Below are positions 39,209-49,175 of a DNA stretch of 64,000 nt, piece by piece (the first letter of the stretch is position 1; every line of letters starts with the position of its first letter). The position numbers were made by a program, and so were the translations under genes. The DNA lies in NCBI GenBank assembly GCA_020161145.1, contig JAIUPQ010000002.1, positions 1-64,000 on the forward strand, in the 5' to 3' direction. This DNA is from Pseudomonadota bacterium. Its GTDB lineage: Bacteria > Pseudomonadota > Gammaproteobacteria > Burkholderiales > Burkholderiaceae_C. The notes under the pieces were generated by a model, which made no database searches, was not told where the DNA came from, and saw only the letters and a program-made list of their open reading frames with translations.

Positions 39209-39287
39209 TGGTAGGCCGCCCGTGAGTCGAACACGGCACCAACAGATTATGAGTCTGCTGCTCTAACCAAGCATGAGCTAGCGGCCC
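39209..39287 (-). tRNA. tRNA with CAU anticodon, probably elongator tRNA-Met
   Basis: Folds as a full cloverleaf: acceptor GGGCCGC with GCGGCCT, D arm GCTC/GAGC, anticodon loop CTCATAA, T arm CCGTG TTCGACT CACGG, discriminator A and encoded CCA at 39209-39211. The D loop has 11 nt. CAU could also be tRNA-Ile2 if modified to lysidine; elongator Met is the more likely call. Confidence 0.9.
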
Positions 39288-39397: not shown

Positions 39398-42300
39398 ATG
39401 GACATGGATCGCAGGCAATTCCTGCGGGTGAGCGCGGCGGGCCTGGTGGGCTCCAGCCTGGTGGCCCTGGGCTTTTCGCCGACGGCGGCACTGGCCGAGA
39501 CGCGCCAGTACAAGCTGGCAGGCGCCCGCGAGACGCGCAACACCTGCACCTATTGCTCGGTGGGCTGTGGGCTGCTGATGTACAGCCTGGGCGACGGCGC
39601 CAAGAACGCGCTGGCCGACGTCATCCACATCGAGGGCGACCCCGACCACCCGGTCAGCCGGGGCAGCTTGTGCCCCAAGGGCGCGGGTCTGCTGGACTTC
39701 GTGCACAGCCCCTCGCGACTGCAGCACCCGGCCGTGCGTGAGCCCGGCAGCAAGGCCTGGAAGCGCTTGAGCTGGGATGAGGCGCTGGACCGCATCGCCG
39801 CGCTGATGAAGGCCGATCGCGATGCCCACTTCCAGGCCCGCAATGCCGACGACCAGGTGGTCAACCGCTGGACCACCACCGGCATGCTGGCGGCCTCGGC
39901 CTCGTCCAACGAGGCGGGCTACATCACCCACAAGGTGATGCGAAGTCTGGGGTTGCTGGTCTTTGACAATCAGGCCAGGGTCTGACATGGCCCGACGGTA
40001 GCCGGTCTGGCTCCGACGTTTGGCCGAGGCGCGATGACCAACCACTGGGAGGACATCAAGAACGCCGACGTGATTCTGGTGATGGGCGGCAACGCCGCCG
40101 AGGCCCACCCCGTGGGCTTCAAGTGGGCCATCGAGGCGCGCAACCACAACAAGGCGCGGCTGGTGGTGGTGGATCCGCGCTTCACGCGCTCGGCCGCCAT
40201 GGCCGATTTCTACGCACCGGTGCGCGCCGGCTCGGACATTGCCTTTCTGGGCGGCGTGATCCGCTACCTGCTGGCCAACGGCCGCATCCAGACCGAGTAC
40301 GTGCGCCATTACACCAACGCGCCGTTCATCGTCGGTGAGGCCTACCAGTTCAACGACGGCATCTTCTCGGGCTACAACGAGGACAAGCGCAGCTACGACC
40401 CGGCCAGCTGGGCCTACGAGAAGGACGAAGCGGGCTTTGCCAAGGTCGACATGACCATGGAACACCCGCGCTGCGTGCTGCAAATCCTCAAGCGCCATTA
40501 CGCGGCCTACACGCCCGAGATGGTCAGCACCATCTGCGGCACCAAGACCGAGGACTTTCTCAAGGTCTGCGAGACCATCGCCAGCACCGCCACGCCTGCG
40601 CGCACCATGACCATCATGTACGCGCTGGGCTGGACGCAGCACAGCACCGGCTCGCAGATGCTGCGCACCGGGGCGATGATGCAGCTGCTGCTGGGCAACA
40701 TCGGCGTGGCCGGCGGTGGCATGAACGCGCTGCGCGGCCACAGCAACATCCAGGGCCTCACCGACCTGGGCCTGCTGTCCACCAACCTGCCGGGCTACCT
40801 CTCGCTGGCCAAAGACAGCGAGCAGGCGCTGGATGGCTACCTGCAGGCACGCTCCACCAAGCCGGTGCGTCCGGGCCAGACCAGCTACTGGCAGAACTAC
40901 CCCAAGTTCTTCGTCAGCCTGCAAAAAGCCTGGTGGGGCGATGCGGCCCGGGCCGACAACCAATGGGCTTACGACTACCTGCCCAAGGCCGACGTGCTCT
41001 ACGACGTGCTGCGCGCGTTCGAGCTGATGAACCAGGGCAAGCTCAACGGCTACATCTGCCAGGGCTTCAACCCGGTGGCCTCGTTCCCGCACAAGGCCAA
41101 GGTGGTGGCCGGGCTTTCCAAGCTCAAGTTCCTGGTCACCATGGACCCGCTGAACACCGAGACGGCCGAGTTCTGGGCCAACCACGGCGAGTTCAACGAC
41201 GTCAAGAGCGAAGACATCCAGACCACGGTGTTCCGGCTGCCCACCACCTGTTTTGCCGAGGACGAGGGCTCCATCACCAACTCCGGGCGCTGGTTGCAAT
41301 GGCACTGGAAGGCCGCGCCGCCACCCGGCGAGGCGCGCACCGACATCGACGTCATGGCCGAGTTGTTCGTGCGGCTGCGGGCGCTGTACAGGAAAGACGG
41401 CGGCGCCTTCCCCGACCCCATCCTCAACCTGACCTGGCCGTACAAAGTGCCTTCGGCACCGGGCCCCGATGAACTTGCCCGCGAGTACAACGGCAAGGCC
41501 CTGGCCGACGTCACCGACCCCACCGACGCCACCAAGGTGCTGGCCAAGGCCGGCGAGCAACTGGCCACCTTCGGCCATCTGCGCGACGACGGCAGCACGG
41601 CCAGCGGCTGCTGGATTTACTGCGGCGCCTGGACTCAGGCCGGCAACCAGATGGCCCGGCGCGACAACAGCGACCCCTGGAACATCGGCCAGACGCTGGC
41701 CTGGGCCTGGGCCTGGCCGGCCAACCGGCGCATCCTCTACAACGGCGCCAGCACCGACCCGGCCACCGGCAAACCCTGGCGCGCCGACAAGCCGCTGGTG
41801 GGCTGGAGCGGCAAGAGCTGGGGCGGTGCCGACGTGCCCGACATCGGCCTGACGGCCGACCCGGCGGCCCGCGACCCGGTGCGGCCCTTCATCATGACCG
41901 CCGAAGGCGTGGCCCGCCTCTTTGCCCCCACCGGCCTGGCCGACGGCCCGCTGCCCACGCATTACGAGCCGTTCGAGTCGCCGCTGGATGCCAACCCGCT
42001 GTTCCCGGGCAACCCCAAGGCCAAGACCAACCCGGCGGCTCGGGTGTTCAAGGCCGACCGCGAAGCCATGGGCACGTCCAAGGACTTCCCCTACGTGGCC
42101 ACCAGCTACCGCCTCACCGAGCACTTCCACTACTGGACCAAGCACGCCCACATCAACGCCGTGCTGCAGCCCGAGCAGTTCGTCGAGATCAGCGAGGCGC
42201 TGGCGCAGGAAAAAGGCATCGCCCATGGCAGCCGCGTCAAGGTCTCGTCGCTGCGCGGCGCCATCACGGCCGTGGCCGTGGTCACCAAGCGCATCCCGGT

Positions 42301-42472
42301 GCTGGAGTGCGACGGGCGCAAGGTGCACACCGTGGGCCTGCCCAACCACTGGGGCTTCATCGGTCAGGCGCGGCCGGGCCATCTGGTCAACACGCTGACG
42401 CCGTTCGTGGGCGATGCCAACACGCAGACGCCTGAATACAAGGCGTTCACCGTGAACATCGAGAAGGCCTAA
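39398..42472 (+). CDS. fdnG: selenocysteine-containing formate dehydrogenase alpha subunit (UGA read as Sec)
   Basis: 1024 residues when the in-frame TGA at 39983-39985 is read as selenocysteine 196, the same position as in E. coli FdnG. Tat signal RRQFLR, [4Fe-4S] cysteines in CTYCSVGCG and SLCPKGA, Sec in NQARV-U-HGPTVAGLAPTFGRG. Then come the molybdopterin domains (MGGNAAEAHPVGFKW, VVDPRFTRSA) and the C-terminal MGD domain ending in LVNTLTPFVGDANTQTPEY. Periplasmic formate oxidation coupled to quinone reduction through FdnH and FdnI. AGAGGAG precedes the ATG at 39398. An in-place SECIS hairpin and selA, selB and tRNA-Sec downstream support Sec and not a broken gene. Confidence 0.97.
39983..40018 (+). 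promoter_or_regulatory. SECIS element directing selenocysteine at the fdnG UGA
   Basis: Counting the U of UGA as 1, the hairpin has a bulged U at 17 (39999), an upper stem AGCC/GGCT (40000-40003 with 40009-40012) and loop GGUCU with G23 and U24. These are the bases contacted by SelB in E. coli fdhF. The lower stem pairs CGG with CCG and CG with CG around one A-A mismatch. Confidence 0.9.
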
Positions 42473-42481
42473 GGAGCGCAC

Positions 42482-43354
42482 ATGTCTTCATTGCAATCCC
42501 TGGACATCGCCAAGCGCTCGGCCACCACCACGCCCACGCCCGATGCACGCGCGGCCATCCCGCAGGTGGCCAAACTGATCGACGTCTCCAGCTGCATCGG
42601 CTGCAAGGCCTGCCAGTCGGCCTGCATGGAGTGGAACGACTTGCGCGACGAGGTGGGCCACAACCACGGCACCTACGACAACCCCAACGACCTCACCCCG
42701 CAGTCCTGGACGGTGATGCGGTTTTCGGAGGTGGAAGTCACCGAGGGCCGGCTGGAGTGGCTGATCCGCAAAGACGGCTGCATGCACTGCGAAGACCCGG
42801 GCTGCCTCAAGGCCTGCCCTTCGCCGGGCGCCATCGTCAAGTACACCAACGGCATCGTGGACTTCATCAGCGAGCACTGCATCGGCTGTGGCTACTGCGT
42901 CAAGGGCTGCCCGTTCGACGTGCCGCGCATCAGCGAGAAAGACCACAAGGCCTACAAATGCTCGCTGTGCGCCGACCGCGTGGCGGTGGGCCAGGAGCCG
43001 GCTTGCGCCAAGGCCTGCCCCACCGGCGCCATCCGTTTCGGCAGCAAGGAGGACATGCTGGACTACGGCGCCGGCCGCGTGGCCGAGTTGCAGACCCGGG
43101 GCTACGACAAGGCCGCCGTCTACGACCCCCAGGGCGTGGGCGGCACCCACGTGGTCTACGTGCTGCAGCACGGCGACAAGCCCGAGCTGTACGCCGGGCT
43201 GGCCGCCGCGCCGCGCATCAGCCCGCTGGTGGGGCTGTGGAAGGGCGCCGCCAAGCCCCTGGCCCTGGCGGCCATGGTGGGCGCGGCCGTGGTCGGCTTC
43301 TTCCACCACATGAAGCAAGGCCCCCTGGAAGTGCCCGAGGAGGATGAAGCATGA
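42482..43354 (+). CDS. fdnH: formate dehydrogenase iron-sulfur subunit
   Basis: 290 residues. Four [4Fe-4S] cysteine sets: [35 protein letters not shown] and [20 protein letters not shown]. One C-terminal membrane helix (about 255-275) anchors it at the periplasmic side. Electron wire from FdnG to FdnI. The ATG lies 9 nt after fdnG. The stop overlaps fdnI by 4 bp. Confidence 0.96.
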
Positions 43355-43980
43355 GCACGCGATACATCCAGCGCTACACCGACAACCAGCGCATCAACCA
43401 CTGGCTGGTGGTGTTGCTGTTCGGCCTGGCGGGTTTTTCGGGGCTGGCGCTGTTTCACCCCAGCCTGTTCTTCCTCACCCAGCTCTTTGGTGGGCCGCAG
43501 TGGACGCGCATCCTGCATCCGTATCTGGGCATTGGCGTCGTCTTGCTGTTCCTGTTGATGTTCGTGGCCTTGCGGGGCGCCAACCTCTGGCGCCGCGAGG
43601 ACACCGAATGGATCAAGGCCGCGCCCGAGCTGGTGTTGCACGGCGATGAATCTGGCATGCCCGCCGTGGGCAAGTACAACGCCGGGCAGAAGCTGGTGTT
43701 CTGGAGCATGAGCATCTGCCTGACGGTGCTGCTGCTCACTGGCGTGCTGTTCTGGCAGGCCTGGTTCGCCAACAGCGTGCCCATCGGCTTGCAGCGCGTG
43801 GCCGTCGTGCTGCATGCGCTGGCGGCCTTCGTCATGTCGCTGACGGCGGTGGTGCACATCTACGCCGCCATCTGGGTCAAGGGCACGCTGCGCGCCATGA
43901 CCCAGGGCTCGGTCAGCAGCGGTTGGGCCAAGCACCACCACCTGCTGTGGTGGCGCGAAAAGGTGGGGCGGCCGGAGTAG
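43351..43980 (+). CDS. fdnI: formate dehydrogenase cytochrome b556 subunit
   Basis: 209 residues with four membrane helices. Haem b ligand candidates are the histidines in [32 protein letters not shown] and VVHIYAAIW. It passes electrons from FdnH to the quinone pool. Ends the structural part of the operon; fdhE follows after 51 nt. Confidence 0.95.
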
Positions 43981-44031
43981 GGGCTTGGGCGGGTACGATC
44001 CATCGGCGTGCCCCCAGACCTCTTGCCCGCC

Positions 44032-45009
44032 ATGACCCACCCCCCGACCACCCGCCTGCGCACCCCAGAAGAAATCGCCCTGAATGCCGGCGCCGACTGG
44101 CCCCGGCTGCGGCTGCCCGACCCCGACGTTTTCGCTGAGCGCGCGCTGCGGCTGCGGCAGTTGGCGGCGGGTCACGCCCTGCGCGACTACCTGCTGCTGC
44201 TGGCCGTGGTGGCCGAGGCCCAGCACGCGCGCCTGGCCACCTACCCCGGCGTGCCCCTGCCCACGCCGGCCCAGGCCGATGCCGCCGCCCACGCCGGTGC
44301 GCCGCTGCTGGCCACCACCACCTGGCCGCGCGATGCCGCCTGGCGCAGCCAGCTGCGCGGGCTGCTGGGCGAAGTGCTGGCGAACCTGCCCGCCGACAGC
44401 CCGGCCCGGGCGGGCGTGCAGGCCGTGCAAGCCCTGCCCGATGCCGACCTGGAGCAGCAGGCCGACCGCCTGCTGGCCGGGCGCACGCAAGGCCTGGATC
44501 TGGCCGGGGCGCCGCTGATTGCGGCCGGCCTGCAACTGCATTGGACGCATCTGGTGCGCGCCAGTGCCGGCGCGCTGACGCAGCCCTTCGGCATGCCGGA
44601 TGACGCCACCCGCTGCCCCTGCTGCGGCAGCCCGCCGGCCGCCAGCATCGTGCGCATCGGCGGCGCGGTGGATGGCCACCGCTACCTGCATTGCACGCTG
44701 TGCAGCGCGCAGTGGCATCTGGTGCGCGTCAAGTGCGCGCACTGCCTGGGCACCAGCGGCATCCAGTACCAGGCCTTGCAGGCCGTGGACGCAAAGGCCA
44801 GCCCGCAGCGCGCCCCCGTGCAGGCCGAAACCTGCGACACCTGCGGCCACTACCTGAAGATTCTGCACATGACGGCCGACCCGCAGGTGGAGCCGCTGGC
44901 CGACGACCTGGCCACGCTGACGCTGGACCTGCTGGTGGGCGAGGCCGGCTATGCCCCCGCCGGCCACAACCTGTTGCTGCTGTTCGGCGAAGAAGACGCG
45001 GCGCCATGA
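44032..45009 (+). CDS. fdhE: formate dehydrogenase accessory protein FdhE
   Basis: 325 residues from the ATG at 44032; a GTG at 44008 is an alternative. Rubredoxin-like cysteine pairs: CPCCGSPPA, HCTLCSAQWHLVR, KCAHCLGTSG and CDTCGHYLKI. FdhE is needed for maturation of respiratory formate dehydrogenases after Tat targeting. Its stop overlaps selA by 4 bp, so Sec synthesis is coupled to the enzyme operon. Confidence 0.92.
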   Translation: MTHPPTTRLRTPEEIALNAGADWPRLRLPDPDVFAERALRLRQLAAGHALRDYLLLLAVVAEAQHARLATYPGVPLPTPAQADAAAHAGAPLLATTTWPRDAAWRSQLRGLLGEVLANLPADSPARAGVQAVQALPDADLEQQADRLLAGRTQGLDLAGAPLIAAGLQLHWTHLVRASAGALTQPFGMPDDATRCPCCGSPPAASIVRIGGAVDGHRYLHCTLCSAQWHLVRVKCAHCLGTSGIQYQALQAVDAKASPQRAPVQAETCDTCGHYLKILHMTADPQVEPLADDLATLTLDLLVGEAGYAPAGHNLLLLFGEEDAAP

Positions 45010-46445
45010 CCGCGCCGCCTTCGCCATCCGTGGTTCACGGTGCGCCGGCCCAGCCCCAGGACTTGCCTGCCACCGATCGCCTGTTGCGCCATGCCGCCGT
45101 GCAGCCGCTGCTGGCTGACCATGGCCACACCTTGGTGGCCGATGAGGCGCGCGTGCTGCTGGCCGCGTGCCGGGCCGAGGCCGTGGCGGGCACGCTGGAC
45201 CGCGCGCAGGCCGCGTCCGATGCGCTGGCCCAGGCCCTGGCCGCGCGCATCGCCGCGCGGCTGGCGCCGCGCATGCGGCCGGTGCTCAACCTGACCGGCA
45301 CCGTCATCCACACCAACCTGGGCCGCGCCGTGCTGGCCGACGTGGCGCTGGATCACGTGGCAGCCACCTTGCGCGGCCCCAACAACCTGGAGTACGACCT
45401 GACCACGGGCGGGCGCGGCGACCGTGACAGCCTGGTCGAAGACCTGCTGTGCACGCTCACTGGCGCCGAGGCCGCCACCGTGGTCAACAACAACGCGGCC
45501 GCCGTCGTGCTGACGCTGGCGGCGCTGGCCGGCGGGCGCGAGGCCATCGTCTCGCGCGGCGAGCTGGTCGAGATCGGCGGCGCCTTCCGCATGCCCGACG
45601 TGATGGCTGCGGCCGGCGCGCACATGGTCGAGGTCGGCACCACCAACCGCACCCACGCCCAGGACTACGCGCGCGCCATCACCGAGCGCACGGCGGTGCT
45701 GCTCAAGGTGCACACCAGCAACTACGCCGTGCAGGGTTTCACCGCCGCCGTGGACGAAGAGGCGCTGGCCCCCATCGCCCATGCGCATGGCCTGGCGCTG
45801 GTCACCGACCTGGGCAGCGGCGCGCTGGTGGACATGAGCCGCTGGGGCCTGCCGCGCGAGCCCCTGCCGCAAGACATGCTGGGCGCCGGCTGCGACGTCG
45901 TCACCTTCAGCGGCGACAAGCTGCTGGGCGGCCCGCAGGCCGGCCTCATCGTCGGCCGCCAGGACGCCATTGCGCGCATCCGCCGCCATCCGCTCAAGCG
46001 CGCGCTGCGGCTGAGCAAGCTGCCGCTGGCTGCGCTCGAAGCCACGCTGCGCCTCTACCTGCAACCCGAGCGGCTGACGCAGGCGCTGCCCACGCTGCGC
46101 CTGCTGACGCGCCCGCTGGCCGACATCGAGGCCGTGGCCCGCACCGTGCAGCCCGTGCTGCAGGCCGCGCTGGGTGAGGGCTGGCGGGTGGTGCCGGTGG
46201 CACTGCAAAGCCAGATCGGCTCGGGCTCGCTGCCCATCGACCGCCTGCCTTCGGCGGGCCTGGCCATCGCGCCGCAAACGCCCCGCAAAGGGCGGGCGCT
46301 GGACGCGCTGGCGGCCGCGCTGCGCGCGCTGCCCGTGCCGGTGATCGGCCGCGTGGCCGACGACCGCCTGCTGCTGGACCTGCGTGGCCTGGAGGACGCG
46401 CACGCACTGACCAGCCAGTTGCACGCCCTGGTCGTCGCCCCATGA
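45006..46445 (+). CDS. selA: L-seryl-tRNA(Sec) selenium transferase
   Basis: 479 residues. PLP lysine is Lys305 in TFSGDKLLGGPQAG. Other family blocks are LNLTGTVIHTNLGRAVL, VNNNAAAVVLTL and RGELVEIGGAFRMPDVM. It converts Ser-tRNA(Sec) to Sec-tRNA(Sec) using selenophosphate. Starts in the ATGA overlap with fdhE and overlaps selB by 4 bp. Confidence 0.96.
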   Translation: MTAPPSPSVVHGAPAQPQDLPATDRLLRHAAVQPLLADHGHTLVADEARVLLAACRAEAVAGTLDRAQAASDALAQALAARIAARLAPRMRPVLNLTGTVIHTNLGRAVLADVALDHVAATLRGPNNLEYDLTTGGRGDRDSLVEDLLCTLTGAEAATVVNNNAAAVVLTLAALAGGREAIVSRGELVEIGGAFRMPDVMAAAGAHMVEVGTTNRTHAQDYARAITERTAVLLKVHTSNYAVQGFTAAVDEEALAPIAHAHGLALVTDLGSGALVDMSRWGLPREPLPQDMLGAGCDVVTFSGDKLLGGPQAGLIVGRQDAIARIRRHPLKRALRLSKLPLAALEATLRLYLQPERLTQALPTLRLLTRPLADIEAVARTVQPVLQAALGEGWRVVPVALQSQIGSGSLPIDRLPSAGLAIAPQTPRKGRALDALAAALRALPVPVIGRVADDRLLLDLRGLEDAHALTSQLHALVVAP

Positions 46446-48325
46446 TCGTCGGCACCGCAGGCCACATCGACCACGGCAAGACCACGCTGGTGCGTGCGCT
46501 CACCGGCGTGGACACCGACCGGCTGGCCGAAGAAAAGCGGCGCGGCATCAGCATCGAGCTGGGCTACGCCTTCATGGCCGGCCCCGACGGCACGCGCATC
46601 GGCTTTGTGGATGTGCCCGGTCACGAGCGGTTGGTGCACACCATGCTGGCCGGCGCCACCGGGCTGGATCTGGCGCTGCTGCTGGTGGCGGCCGACGATG
46701 GTGTGATGCCGCAGACGCGCGAGCACCTGGCCGCACTGGTGTTGCTGGGCCTGCCGCGGGCCATCGTGGCCTTGACCAAGACCGACCGCGTCAGCCCCGA
46801 ACGCCTGGTCGAGGTGCAGGCCCAGGTGCAGGTGCTGCTGGCGGACACGCCGCTGGCCGGCTCGCCCATGGTGCCGGTGTCGGCCACCACTGGCGTGGGG
46901 CTGGACGCGCTGCGGGCGCGGCTGCTTGATGCCGCCCGCAGCCCCACGGTGCGTCCGCTGGGCGCGGCCTTCCGCCTGGCCATCGATCGCGCCTTCGCAT
47001 TGCCCGGGGCCGGCACCGTGGTCACCGGCAGCGTGCATGCCGGGCGCGTGCAGGTGGGCGATGAGTTGGTGCTGGTGCCGGGCGGCAGCCGCGTGCGCGT
47101 GCGCAGCGTCCATGCCCAGAACCAGGCCACCGAGGCCGCGGAGGCCGGGCAACGCGCCGCACTGGCGCTGGTGGGCGTGGCGCACGACGCGGTCGCGCGC
47201 GGGCAATGGGTGGTGGCGCCCGAGGCCGCGCTGCACACCGACCGGCTCGACGCCTGGCTCACCGTCTGGCCCGGCGAGGCCCGCCCGCTGCGCTCGGGCG
47301 CCCCCGTGCACGTGCACCTGGGCGCGGCGGCCGTCATGGCCAGCGTGGCCGTGCTGGAGGCGGGCGACGCGCTGGCACCCGGCGCCAGCGGCTGGGTGCA
47401 GTTGGTGCTGCGCCAGCCCATGGGCGCCTGGGCCGGCGACCGCGTGGTGCTGCGCGACGCCGCCGCCAGCCGCATGGTGGCCGGCGGCGTGGTGCACGAC
47501 CCGCATGCGCCCGCACGCTACCGCCGCACGCCGCAGCGGCTGAGCCAGCTGGCGGCGCTGGCACTGCCCACGCCGGCGGCGCGACTGGCCGCGCTGCTGG
47601 ACGCGTCACCCAACGGCCTGGACGCTGCGCGCCTGGGCGCAGCCCACGGGGCGGCGCTGGCGCCGCCGCCCGATGCACTGGCCCAGGACGGCTGGCTGCT
47701 GGCCGCCCGCCATGCCGATGCGGCTGCAGCGCTGGTGCTGGCCACGCTGGCGGCCCACCACGCCCGCCAGCCCGACGAGCCCGGCCCCGATGCCGCCCGG
47801 CTGCGGCGGCTGGCCTTGCCCCGGTTGGCGGCGCCGCTGTGGCCGGCGCTGCTGGCCGGCTTGCGCGGCGCGGGCCAGGTGATGGTGGCTGGTGCCTTCG
47901 TGCAACTGCCTGCCCATGCGGTGGCCTTGTCGGCGGCCGAGCGGCGGCTGGCACAGCAGGTGGCGGCGTCGCTGGCCACCGCTGGCTTCGAGGGCGCCTG
48001 GGTGCGCGACCTGGCCCGCGACGCCGGCCAGCCCGAGGCGCTGACCCGCCTGACGCTGGCCCGGCTGGCGCAGCGCGGCGAGTTGCACCAGATCGTCAAA
48101 GACCTTTACCTGCCGCCGGCCACCCTGCAACGCCTGGTCGCCTTGGCCCGCGATGTGGCGGCGTCACAAGGCGGCGCGCTCACGGCGGCGCGGTTTCGCG
48201 ACGCCACCGGGCTGGGCCGCAAGCGGGCCATTCAGGTGCTGGAGTACTTCGACCGCGTGGGGCTGACGCGCCGCGTGGGCGACGCGCATCGGCTGCGCCC
48301 GCAGGCTGGCCTGTTACTCGGCTAG
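46442..48325 (+). CDS. selB: selenocysteine-specific elongation factor SelB
   Basis: 627 residues. GTPase motifs [18 protein letters not shown] and TKTD; then three beta-barrel domains and C-terminal winged helices that bind SECIS (ending [25 protein letters not shown]). It brings Sec-tRNA to the ribosome at the UGA. Last protein gene of the fdn-sel block, 31 nt before tRNA-Sec. Confidence 0.96.
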
Positions 48326-48356
48326 AGTCGGCGCTTTTCTTTTTTGCCTTTGCAGT

Positions 48357-48451
48357 GGAGGGGCAACGGTCCTGGTGGGCCGGCCGGGCTTCAAACCCGG
48401 TGGGTGGCGCCACGCGCCGCCGGGTGGGTTCGACTCCCATGCCCCTCCGCC
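48357..48451 (+). tRNA. selC: tRNA-Sec (UCA anticodon)
   Basis: Eight-bp acceptor stem GGAGGGGC (48357-48364) with GCCCCTCC (48441-48448), long variable arm, anticodon TCA at 48391-48393 in loop CTTCAAA, T loop GGTTCGACTCC, discriminator G. The genome gives GCC then C, so the final A of CCA is not encoded. Lies just after selB, in the same orientation. Confidence 0.95.
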
Positions 48452-48512: not shown

Positions 48513-49175
48513 ATGAACCCCTCCAGCTGGATGCCGCCCGTGGCCTGGAGCCTTTCTCACGCCCAGACGGTGATCGAGGCGGCGGCCACCGTGGCCTTTG
48601 CCGCCTCGGGCCTGCTGGAGGCGGCGCGCAAGCGGCTGGACGTGGTGGGCGTGTGCGTGGTGGCCGGTCTGGCCGCGTTTGGCGGCGGCACGCTGCGCGA
48701 CGTGCTGCTGGACCGGCGGCCGTTCTTCTGGGTGGCGCACGCCAACTGGTTGTGGGTGCTGCTGGTGGCCTGTGTGGCGGCCATGTGGCTGCTGCGCGCC
48801 CGCCACGTGCCCATCACCCAGCGCGCCATGCAATGGCCCGATGCGCTGGGCCTGGGCCTGTTCAGTGCCAGCGGCACCCAGATCGCGCTGCAAATGAGCC
48901 TGCCGCCGCTGGTGGCGGTGCTGATGGGTGTGGTCACGGCGGTGTGCGGCGGCATGCTGCGCGACATCGTCATCAACGAGATTCCCACCGCGCTCTACGA
49001 CCGGCGCCCCTATGCCGTCTGTGCGTTCGCCGGTGGCTGGGTGCTGGTGGGCCTCAACCACCTGCGCATGGACGATGCCTGGGCGCTGCCGCTGGCGGCG
49101 GCCACAGCCACGCTGCTGCGGGTGGCCGGCATGCTGACCGAGGTGAGGCTGCCAAGCTGGCGCGAGGACTTGTAG
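48513..49175 (+). CDS. TRIC/UPF0126 family membrane channel (YicG-like)
   Basis: 220 residues, seven membrane helices in two repeats. Each repeat holds the family motif: GLAAFGGGTLRDVLLDRRPFFW and TAVCGGMLRDIVINEIPTAL. Bacterial homologues form trimeric monovalent cation channels. Start ATG 48513 (MNPSSW) avoids reading through the tRNA-Sec gene. Confidence 0.9.
   Translation: MNPSSWMPPVAWSLSHAQTVIEAAATVAFAASGLLEAARKRLDVVGVCVVAGLAAFGGGTLRDVLLDRRPFFWVAHANWLWVLLVACVAAMWLLRARHVPITQRAMQWPDALGLGLFSASGTQIALQMSLPPLVAVLMGVVTAVCGGMLRDIVINEIPTALYDRRPYAVCAFAGGWVLVGLNHLRMDDAWALPLAAATATLLRVAGMLTEVRLPSWREDL

Follow-up and report, generated by a model that had tools for sequence, protein, structure and literature searches.

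A selenocysteine-dependent formate dehydrogenase with adjoining decoding genes forms a probably functional, most likely horizontally acquired block in a Burkholderiaceae_C bacterium

The window analysed here is a stretch of 64,000 nucleotides from a Pseudomonadota bacterium of the family Burkholderiaceae_C (assembly GCA_020161145.1, contig JAIUPQ010000002.1). On its + strand, at 39398-48451, seven genes follow each other head to tail: fdnG, fdnH, fdnI, fdhE, selA, selB and selC. They encode a formate dehydrogenase predicted to contain selenocysteine (Sec), its maturation factor and the genes that would decode Sec at an in-frame UGA codon. We regard the block as very probably a complete operon, likely to be functional, which holds one selenoprotein together with the means to make it and was most likely acquired horizontally. 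Its genes and features are the following.

39398-42472, + strand: fdnG, formate dehydrogenase-N alpha subunit, 1024 amino acids, predicted Sec at codon 196 (TIGR01553, 1466 bits against a cut-off of 814)
39980-40038, + strand: selenocysteine insertion sequence (SECIS) element inside fdnG, spanning the UGA and bases 3' of it (Rfam RF01989, SECIS_3, 74.4 bits against 63)
42482-43354, + strand: fdnH, iron-sulfur beta subunit with a C-terminal membrane helix (TIGR01582, 438.6 bits against 334.7; PF09163)
43351-43980, + strand: fdnI, cytochrome b gamma subunit (TIGR01583, 160.8 bits against 115.85)
44032-45009, + strand: fdhE, formate dehydrogenase accessory protein (TIGR01562, 230.5 bits against 187.65)
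45006-46445, + strand: selA, L-seryl-tRNA(Sec) selenium transferase (TIGR00474, 576.4 bits against 267.9)
46442-48325, + strand: selB, Sec-specific elongation factor with C-terminal winged helices (SelB-wing_2, wing_3; TIGR00475, 442.6 bits against 242.25)
48357-48451, + strand: selC, tRNA-Sec, anticodon UCA (TCA in DNA) by ARAGORN (Rfam RF01852 at 48357-48448, 80.4 bits against 47)

An earlier sequence-only reading of the window had listed these seven genes on one strand, with mostly 4-bp overlaps or short gaps between them, and every gene is present where it was placed. There are three overlaps of 4 bp (fdnH/fdnI, fdhE/selA and selA/selB) and gaps of 9 (fdnG-fdnH), 51 (fdnI-fdhE) and 31 bases (selB-selC), the second of these counted from the ATG of fdhE at 44032; the start given in the list of open reading frames (ORFs) is a GTG at 44008. 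All six block proteins score above the NCBIfam equivalog cut-offs, and the alpha, beta and gamma subunits all exceed the curated cut-offs that define formate dehydrogenase N (TIGR01553, TIGR01582 and TIGR01583). The selC gene has an 8-bp acceptor stem and no encoded CCA, both judged by eye, and a fold z-score of -4.55.

FdnGHI is a membrane-bound formate dehydrogenase, exported by twin-arginine translocation (Tat), that delivers formate-derived electrons to the quinone pool, and FdhE is its maturation factor. SelA converts Ser-tRNA(Sec) to Sec-tRNA(Sec) using selenophosphate, which in the window species would be supplied by a resident selD on another contig. SelB would then bring Sec-tRNA(Sec) to the SECIS hairpin behind UGA-196, where Sec is predicted to be inserted. 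The genome holds SelA, SelB with its winged helices, a tRNA-Sec with anticodon UCA, SelD and a SECIS element 3' of an in-frame UGA. The block was previously called self-contained, a description that has to be given up, given that selD is required and lies on another contig. The genes and their order, the SECIS element, selD, the distribution and the tree conflict are seen directly in sequence; we infer co-transcription and enzyme activity, as well as the direction and mechanism of transfer.

The UGA proposed earlier at codon 196 of fdnG is the single in-frame TGA of the gene (39983-39985). Across the 53 UGA-type FdnG compared, that of the window among them, the stop always sits in an identical motif, QAR[VI]-stop-H, and hence UGA-196 is not a product of chance. 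Base pairing holds over most of the apical stem in the 24 distinct SECIS sequences from 53 genomes, the window again among them; pair 24-30 is C-G in 17 and A-U in 7 of them, and pair 22-32 fails in two. That the UGA is an ordinary stop or a sequencing error, with fdnG a pseudogene or two genes, is hardly credible. The sole point in its favour is that the ORF caller splits fdnG at this codon, against which stand the presence of a stop at this position in 53 of 53 UGA-type proteins, the Rfam-level SECIS element that spans the UGA, the Sec genes that adjoin fdnG, and three relatives without SelB that carry cysteine (Cys) at the same position. As had been noted from the window, only one client is seen: the genome gives a single SECIS_3 match (150 of 2486 first-look candidates scored) and a single FdnG match, and other selenoprotein types were not searched for.

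Across 200 genomes of the family, FdnG and the decoding genes occur together. FdnG of the window's type is found in 50 genomes, 47 with one UGA and three without (G126, G170 and G181, the Cys type; handles with G denote genomes, those with L loci). All 47 genomes with UGA-type FdnG have SelB and tRNA-Sec, and none of the three with the Cys type has either. A tRNA-Sec was counted as present at 64 bits or more (52 genomes; next score 51.8), and 42 further genomes with scores from 47, the curated cut-off, to 51.8 bits were taken to hold putative tRNA-Sec cross-matches. SelB was found in 51 genomes among the matches listed, and the 52nd is presumably G071, in which SelB matched in two pieces; counting it, SelB and tRNA-Sec occupy the same 52 genomes. 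SelB occurs without FdnG in five (G011, G037, G094, G134 and G161).

Gene order was read by tblastn and ARAGORN on stretches fetched around the blocks. In 40 of the 47 genomes with UGA-type FdnG, all seven genes stand in order on one strand, in some cases with additional bases inside the block, and four others are split across contigs in a way compatible with this order (G066, G116, G136 and G160). The expectation that sel genes would not be scattered in relatives is borne out, with 44 of 47 genomes keeping the order or cut only by contig ends. In the other three (G056, G188 and G196) the tRNA-Sec lies away from the block. In two of these, G056 (L069) and G196 (L091), the only strong tRNA-Sec is next to a second SelB, apart from an fdn-sel block that has no tRNA-Sec of its own. 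The Cys-type loci of G170, G126 and G181 (L101, L102 and L103), the last from the window's genus, consist of fdnGHI-fdhE with no adjoining sel genes; they have TGC or TGT at the Sec position, and a fold is still predicted 3' of the Cys codon (without a control).

The selD gene, which the sequence-only reading had expected elsewhere in the genome, lies at G000:C10:120475-121398 (422.9 bits against a cut-off of 125), and the genome also has a match to selU, the gene for tRNA 2-selenouridine synthesis. In the family, selD is found in 181 of 200 genomes (E 1e-60) and selU in 174 (E 1e-30), as against 52 with SelB above the cut-off. All but one of the 52 SelB genomes have selD, the exception (G116) being a 620-contig assembly, and so do 130 of the 148 genomes without SelB, which amounts to a slight enrichment in SelB genomes (Fisher p 0.029, kinship ignored). 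For at least 11 genomes among the 47 with UGA-type FdnG, selD and the block are no more than 10 kb apart (G004, G078, G086, G120, G136, G148, G150, G177, G178, G183 and G190). Since selD is common and SelB patchy, selenophosphate supply appears to be the background state and the Sec block the accessory part. Because most of the family genomes sampled retain selD together with selU regardless of Sec use, a selD-bearing genome could gain the block in one step, and the block could be lost without harm to selU.

The ancestry of the block conflicts with that of RpoB, the sole species marker used. By RpoB, 15 tested members of the window's genus, including the window, form one clade (Shimodaira-Hasegawa-like approximate likelihood ratio test, SH-aLRT, 97), whereas the FdnG tree makes a pair of genomes from a different genus, g16, the sister group of the window (SH-aLRT 100); supports in both trees come from a quick method. 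FdnG of the window is 84.0 and 83.5% identical to those of g16 (ranks 1 and 2) compared with 68-69% to five congeners, while for RpoB the identities to g16 are 83.8 and 83.9% and rank only 40 and 46 of 57. A clade of congeners is rejected for FdnG in the approximately unbiased (AU) test, with p 1.1e-5 for all eight rows and 4e-83 for six rows (the window and the five 68-69% types). It is also rejected for SelB (p 2e-9) and SelA (1e-61), each with five rows (the window with G203, G204, G207 and G208). Both SelA and SelB of a further congener, G209, which was outside the AU congener group, fall on the window's side of the trees. A clade of the window and g16 is not rejected in quick trees for SelB (AU p 0.185) or SelA (0.294).

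Window-g16 identity is 72-74% for SelA and 64-67% for SelB. These values first seemed low and suggested that fdnG and selAB of the window had separate histories, an idea that was dropped, given that 171 other pairs at FdnG identities of 81-87% (not independent) have like values, with means of 74.0 for SelA and 61.4 for SelB. In the RpoB trees G016 was left out (a short piece) and the partial RpoB of G209 was kept; no RpoB match at 1e-100 was obtained for G036, G084, G160 and G210. All trees omit the second SelB locus of G056 and that of G196; the FdnG AU tests omit G037, the SelA and SelB AU tests omit G011, G037, G094, G134, G141 and G161, and the 171-pair comparison omits G016, G037 and G209.

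Horizontal acquisition is supported by these sequence comparisons. The simplest reading is that the block in the window species would have come from outside the genus as a unit, acquired from, or shared with, a lineage near g16, and independently of the congener blocks.

Eight of the 16 genomes of the window's genus carry FdnG, in four forms; for 13 further congeners (G200-G212), FdnG was the sole block gene searched genome-wide. Next to the form in the window stand the five congeners with the 68-69% identical UGA type (G202, G203, G204, G207 and G208), of which all have the full seven-gene order except G202, where the contig ends after fdhE. The other four share one locus, and the compared pairs are collinear over 13-15 kb at 91-94%, so the block is vertically inherited within this subgroup. 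G181 has the Cys-type FdnG (63% identical), SelB below the cut-off and no match to selD or selU. The fourth form is a broken UGA-type fdnG in G209, 62.5% identical to that of the window. At this locus (L115 4179-10582), selD stands between rearranged fdnG fragments, and the genes from fdnH to tRNA-Sec come next in their normal order, an arrangement that reflects either decay or an assembly fault. FdnG was not found in eight congeners, two of which are less than 90% complete.

Within one genus the block can thus be missing, present in different, deeply divergent versions or apparently decayed, or a Cys-type enzyme that lacks sel genes takes its place. This pattern leads us to a broader reading, plausible if just short of probable, in which Sec decoding is a species-level accessory cassette on a standing selD/selU background and swaps repeatedly import foreign versions. 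If true, the 21st amino acid would be gained, lost and swapped on the time scale of species. A genetic-code expansion that travels with its only known client would be a testable case, and the forms that coexist in the genus (UGA type, Cys type and none) could provide a measure of what Sec is worth.

The conflict could also be one of paralog sorting under vertical inheritance and repeated loss, with a family ancestor that had at least two divergent blocks and lineages that kept different ones. The wide occurrence of the block in the family (SelB in 52 of 200) and its native composition speak for such a history. However, none of the 200 genomes has two such FdnG at E 1e-100 (up to four candidates scored per genome), the sole double entry, G091, being one gene matched in two pieces. 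In addition, many separate losses would be required within a single 16-genome genus, and RpoB places the window and g16 far apart even though their FdnG are 84% identical and rank first and second. We therefore consider this history unlikely. It is also rather unlikely, in our judgement, that the parts moved separately, with fdnGHI-fdhE and selABC as distinct cassettes joined by recombination between co-resident blocks. Eight genomes (G004, G018, G072, G120, G136, G147, G178 and G190) do combine a SelB from the other main branch with FdnG and SelA that share one class, G095 and G196 have g16-like ancestry in SelB and not in FdnG, and the free SelB and SelA trees do not make the window and g16 sisters as the FdnG tree does. 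Against this, all three genes of the window reject the tested congeners, SelA and SelB do not reject g16, and the window-g16 identities scale like those of other pairs. Elsewhere in the family, parts of the block appear to have been exchanged, and the unit would not always have been kept whole.

Besides the free SelB and SelA trees, several results weigh against a functional block that was acquired as a unit. The fold energy of the SECIS element is unremarkable (z -0.21), and energy alone would have missed it. A sigma-70-like promoter was looked for and not found, and a weak hairpin at 48318-48331, across the end of selB, is no stronger than expected by chance. None of the six nearest protein neighbours, all of which were tested, is a transposase or an integrase. 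Composition is native, with a guanine-cytosine content of 0.710 in the block and 0.707 in the window; a foreign composition is thereby rejected, and any transfer would have to be an old one or come from a genome of similar composition. No att-like repeat was seen, and the tRNA-Met gene beside the block has no exact repeat of 14 bases or more elsewhere in the window. An empty site was sought through the right neighbour (48513-49172) and the left TonB receptor in eight genomes, the window's own included, and flank ORFs were compared with the fetched block loci. Within the few kb fetched, the flank genes of the window do not lie beside the blocks of relatives, except for one distant match at the Cys-type locus of G126, and they are not together in the stretches of G076, a block-less congener, so that an empty site was not seen in these stretches. 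Lastly, the available part of Peng et al. 2016 (PMC5029168) reports more horizontal gene transfer into organisms without another selenium trait, which disfavours a strong role for a resident selD.

The proposal that the block could move as one trait hence stands in part. FdnG, SelA and SelB differ in ancestry from the tested congeners, in conflict with RpoB; an integrase (among the six neighbours), an att-like repeat and a foreign composition were not found, and the FdnG and SelA trees disagree with that of SelB in some relatives.

The six neighbours comprise FeoB, OsmC, a TonB receptor that matches PqqU best but stays below its cut-off, a membrane protein of family PF03458, a sulfurtransferase-like protein (also below its cut-off) and an EamA transporter. 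The tRNA-Met gene (CAT) lies on the - strand at 39209-39287 (79 bases), 110 bases before fdnG. A model in which it serves as an att site was dropped, given that its 3' end is not the one facing the block and that no repeat turned up. Other tRNA genes lie near the block in several relatives (for example L027, L064 and L105).

In the available text of Zhang et al. 2006 (PMC1794560), selA-selB-selC beside fdhA is the rule in Alpha- and Betaproteobacteria and in Pseudomonadales, shared by every Sec decoder of these groups known at the time, with fdhA as the sole selenoprotein, and co-transfer or stepwise gain is proposed into genomes that already have selD for selenouridine. The window has the same genes and, as far as that text goes, no different mechanism, and it is a further example of the arrangement and co-transfer described in 2006; the general idea is two decades old (PMC1794560). 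The comparisons in that text are between phyla and classes, whereas the conflict in the window lies between congeneric species. To this the present analysis adds a tree conflict within a single genus and counts of how often selD is there as a resident helper, although the literature search was not aimed at within-genus reports and priority is not claimed. The accessible part of Romero et al. 2005 (PMC1273633) likewise describes horizontal transfer of the Sec trait, with selD common to Sec and selenouridine. For the fdoGHI-selABCD cluster on pSymA of Sinorhizobium meliloti and in relatives, in which a formate dehydrogenase operon is linked to sel genes as in the window, the available portion of a further report mentions a speculation about transfer among Alpha-, Beta- and Gammaproteobacteria (PMC8124441). 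By that account the pSymA cluster includes selD and is located on a megaplasmid, whereas the window block is on a 597-kb contig with selD outside the block.

Of 72,556 plasmid records, 211 gave a match to SelB, every one of them below 60% identity, and 104 hold a place that covers 80% or more of the query; 30 of these matches were listed and one region was opened. A plasmid of Paracoccus sp. Arc7-R13 (NZ_CP034811.1, 199,685 bp) has the same order, fdnG-fdxH-gamma-fdhE-selA-selB, and the same 4-bp selA/selB overlap as the window. It differs in that the block is plasmid-borne (typed non-mobilizable), has a putative selenate ABC transporter upstream and encodes a SelB that is 50.9% identical. Pseudomonas sp. 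PD9R (L032), which we take to belong to another class, Gammaproteobacteria, has the same seven-gene order on one strand, with FdnG 64% and SelB 47% identical to those of the window. In Escherichia coli, the homologous fdnGHI, selAB and selC are in separate places, and there are three Sec-containing formate dehydrogenases.

Several relatives have extra genes between selA and selB (for example L050 6618-8006, L056, L088 and L094), named by eye as a Tat-type flavin adenine dinucleotide (FAD) oxidoreductase, a TlpA-like redoxin, and a transglutaminase-like or ferritin-like protein. The FAD protein is found in 15 of the 52 SelB genomes versus 3 of the 148 others (Fisher 1.3e-7, kinship ignored); 7 of these 15 have it between the two sel genes, and the other 8 have it elsewhere. 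It has no match at E 1e-80 in the window's genome.

Three of the genomes with SelB and no FdnG (G161, G037 and G094) have a tRNA-Sec-like gene with the anticodon GCA (Cys) at 67.6-67.9 bits (L098 9745-9841, L099 8064-8160 and L100 7806-7902, respectively). At each locus selB is followed by this gene; selA comes next in L098 and L099, and in L100 the contig ends first. On the opposite strand, L099 and L100 encode a formate dehydrogenase with TGC at the Sec codon and a hairpin predicted behind it. Judged by their sequence, these loci look like cases of Sec insertion at a Cys codon, which the available parts of two papers already describe (PMC10778597; PMC8124441).

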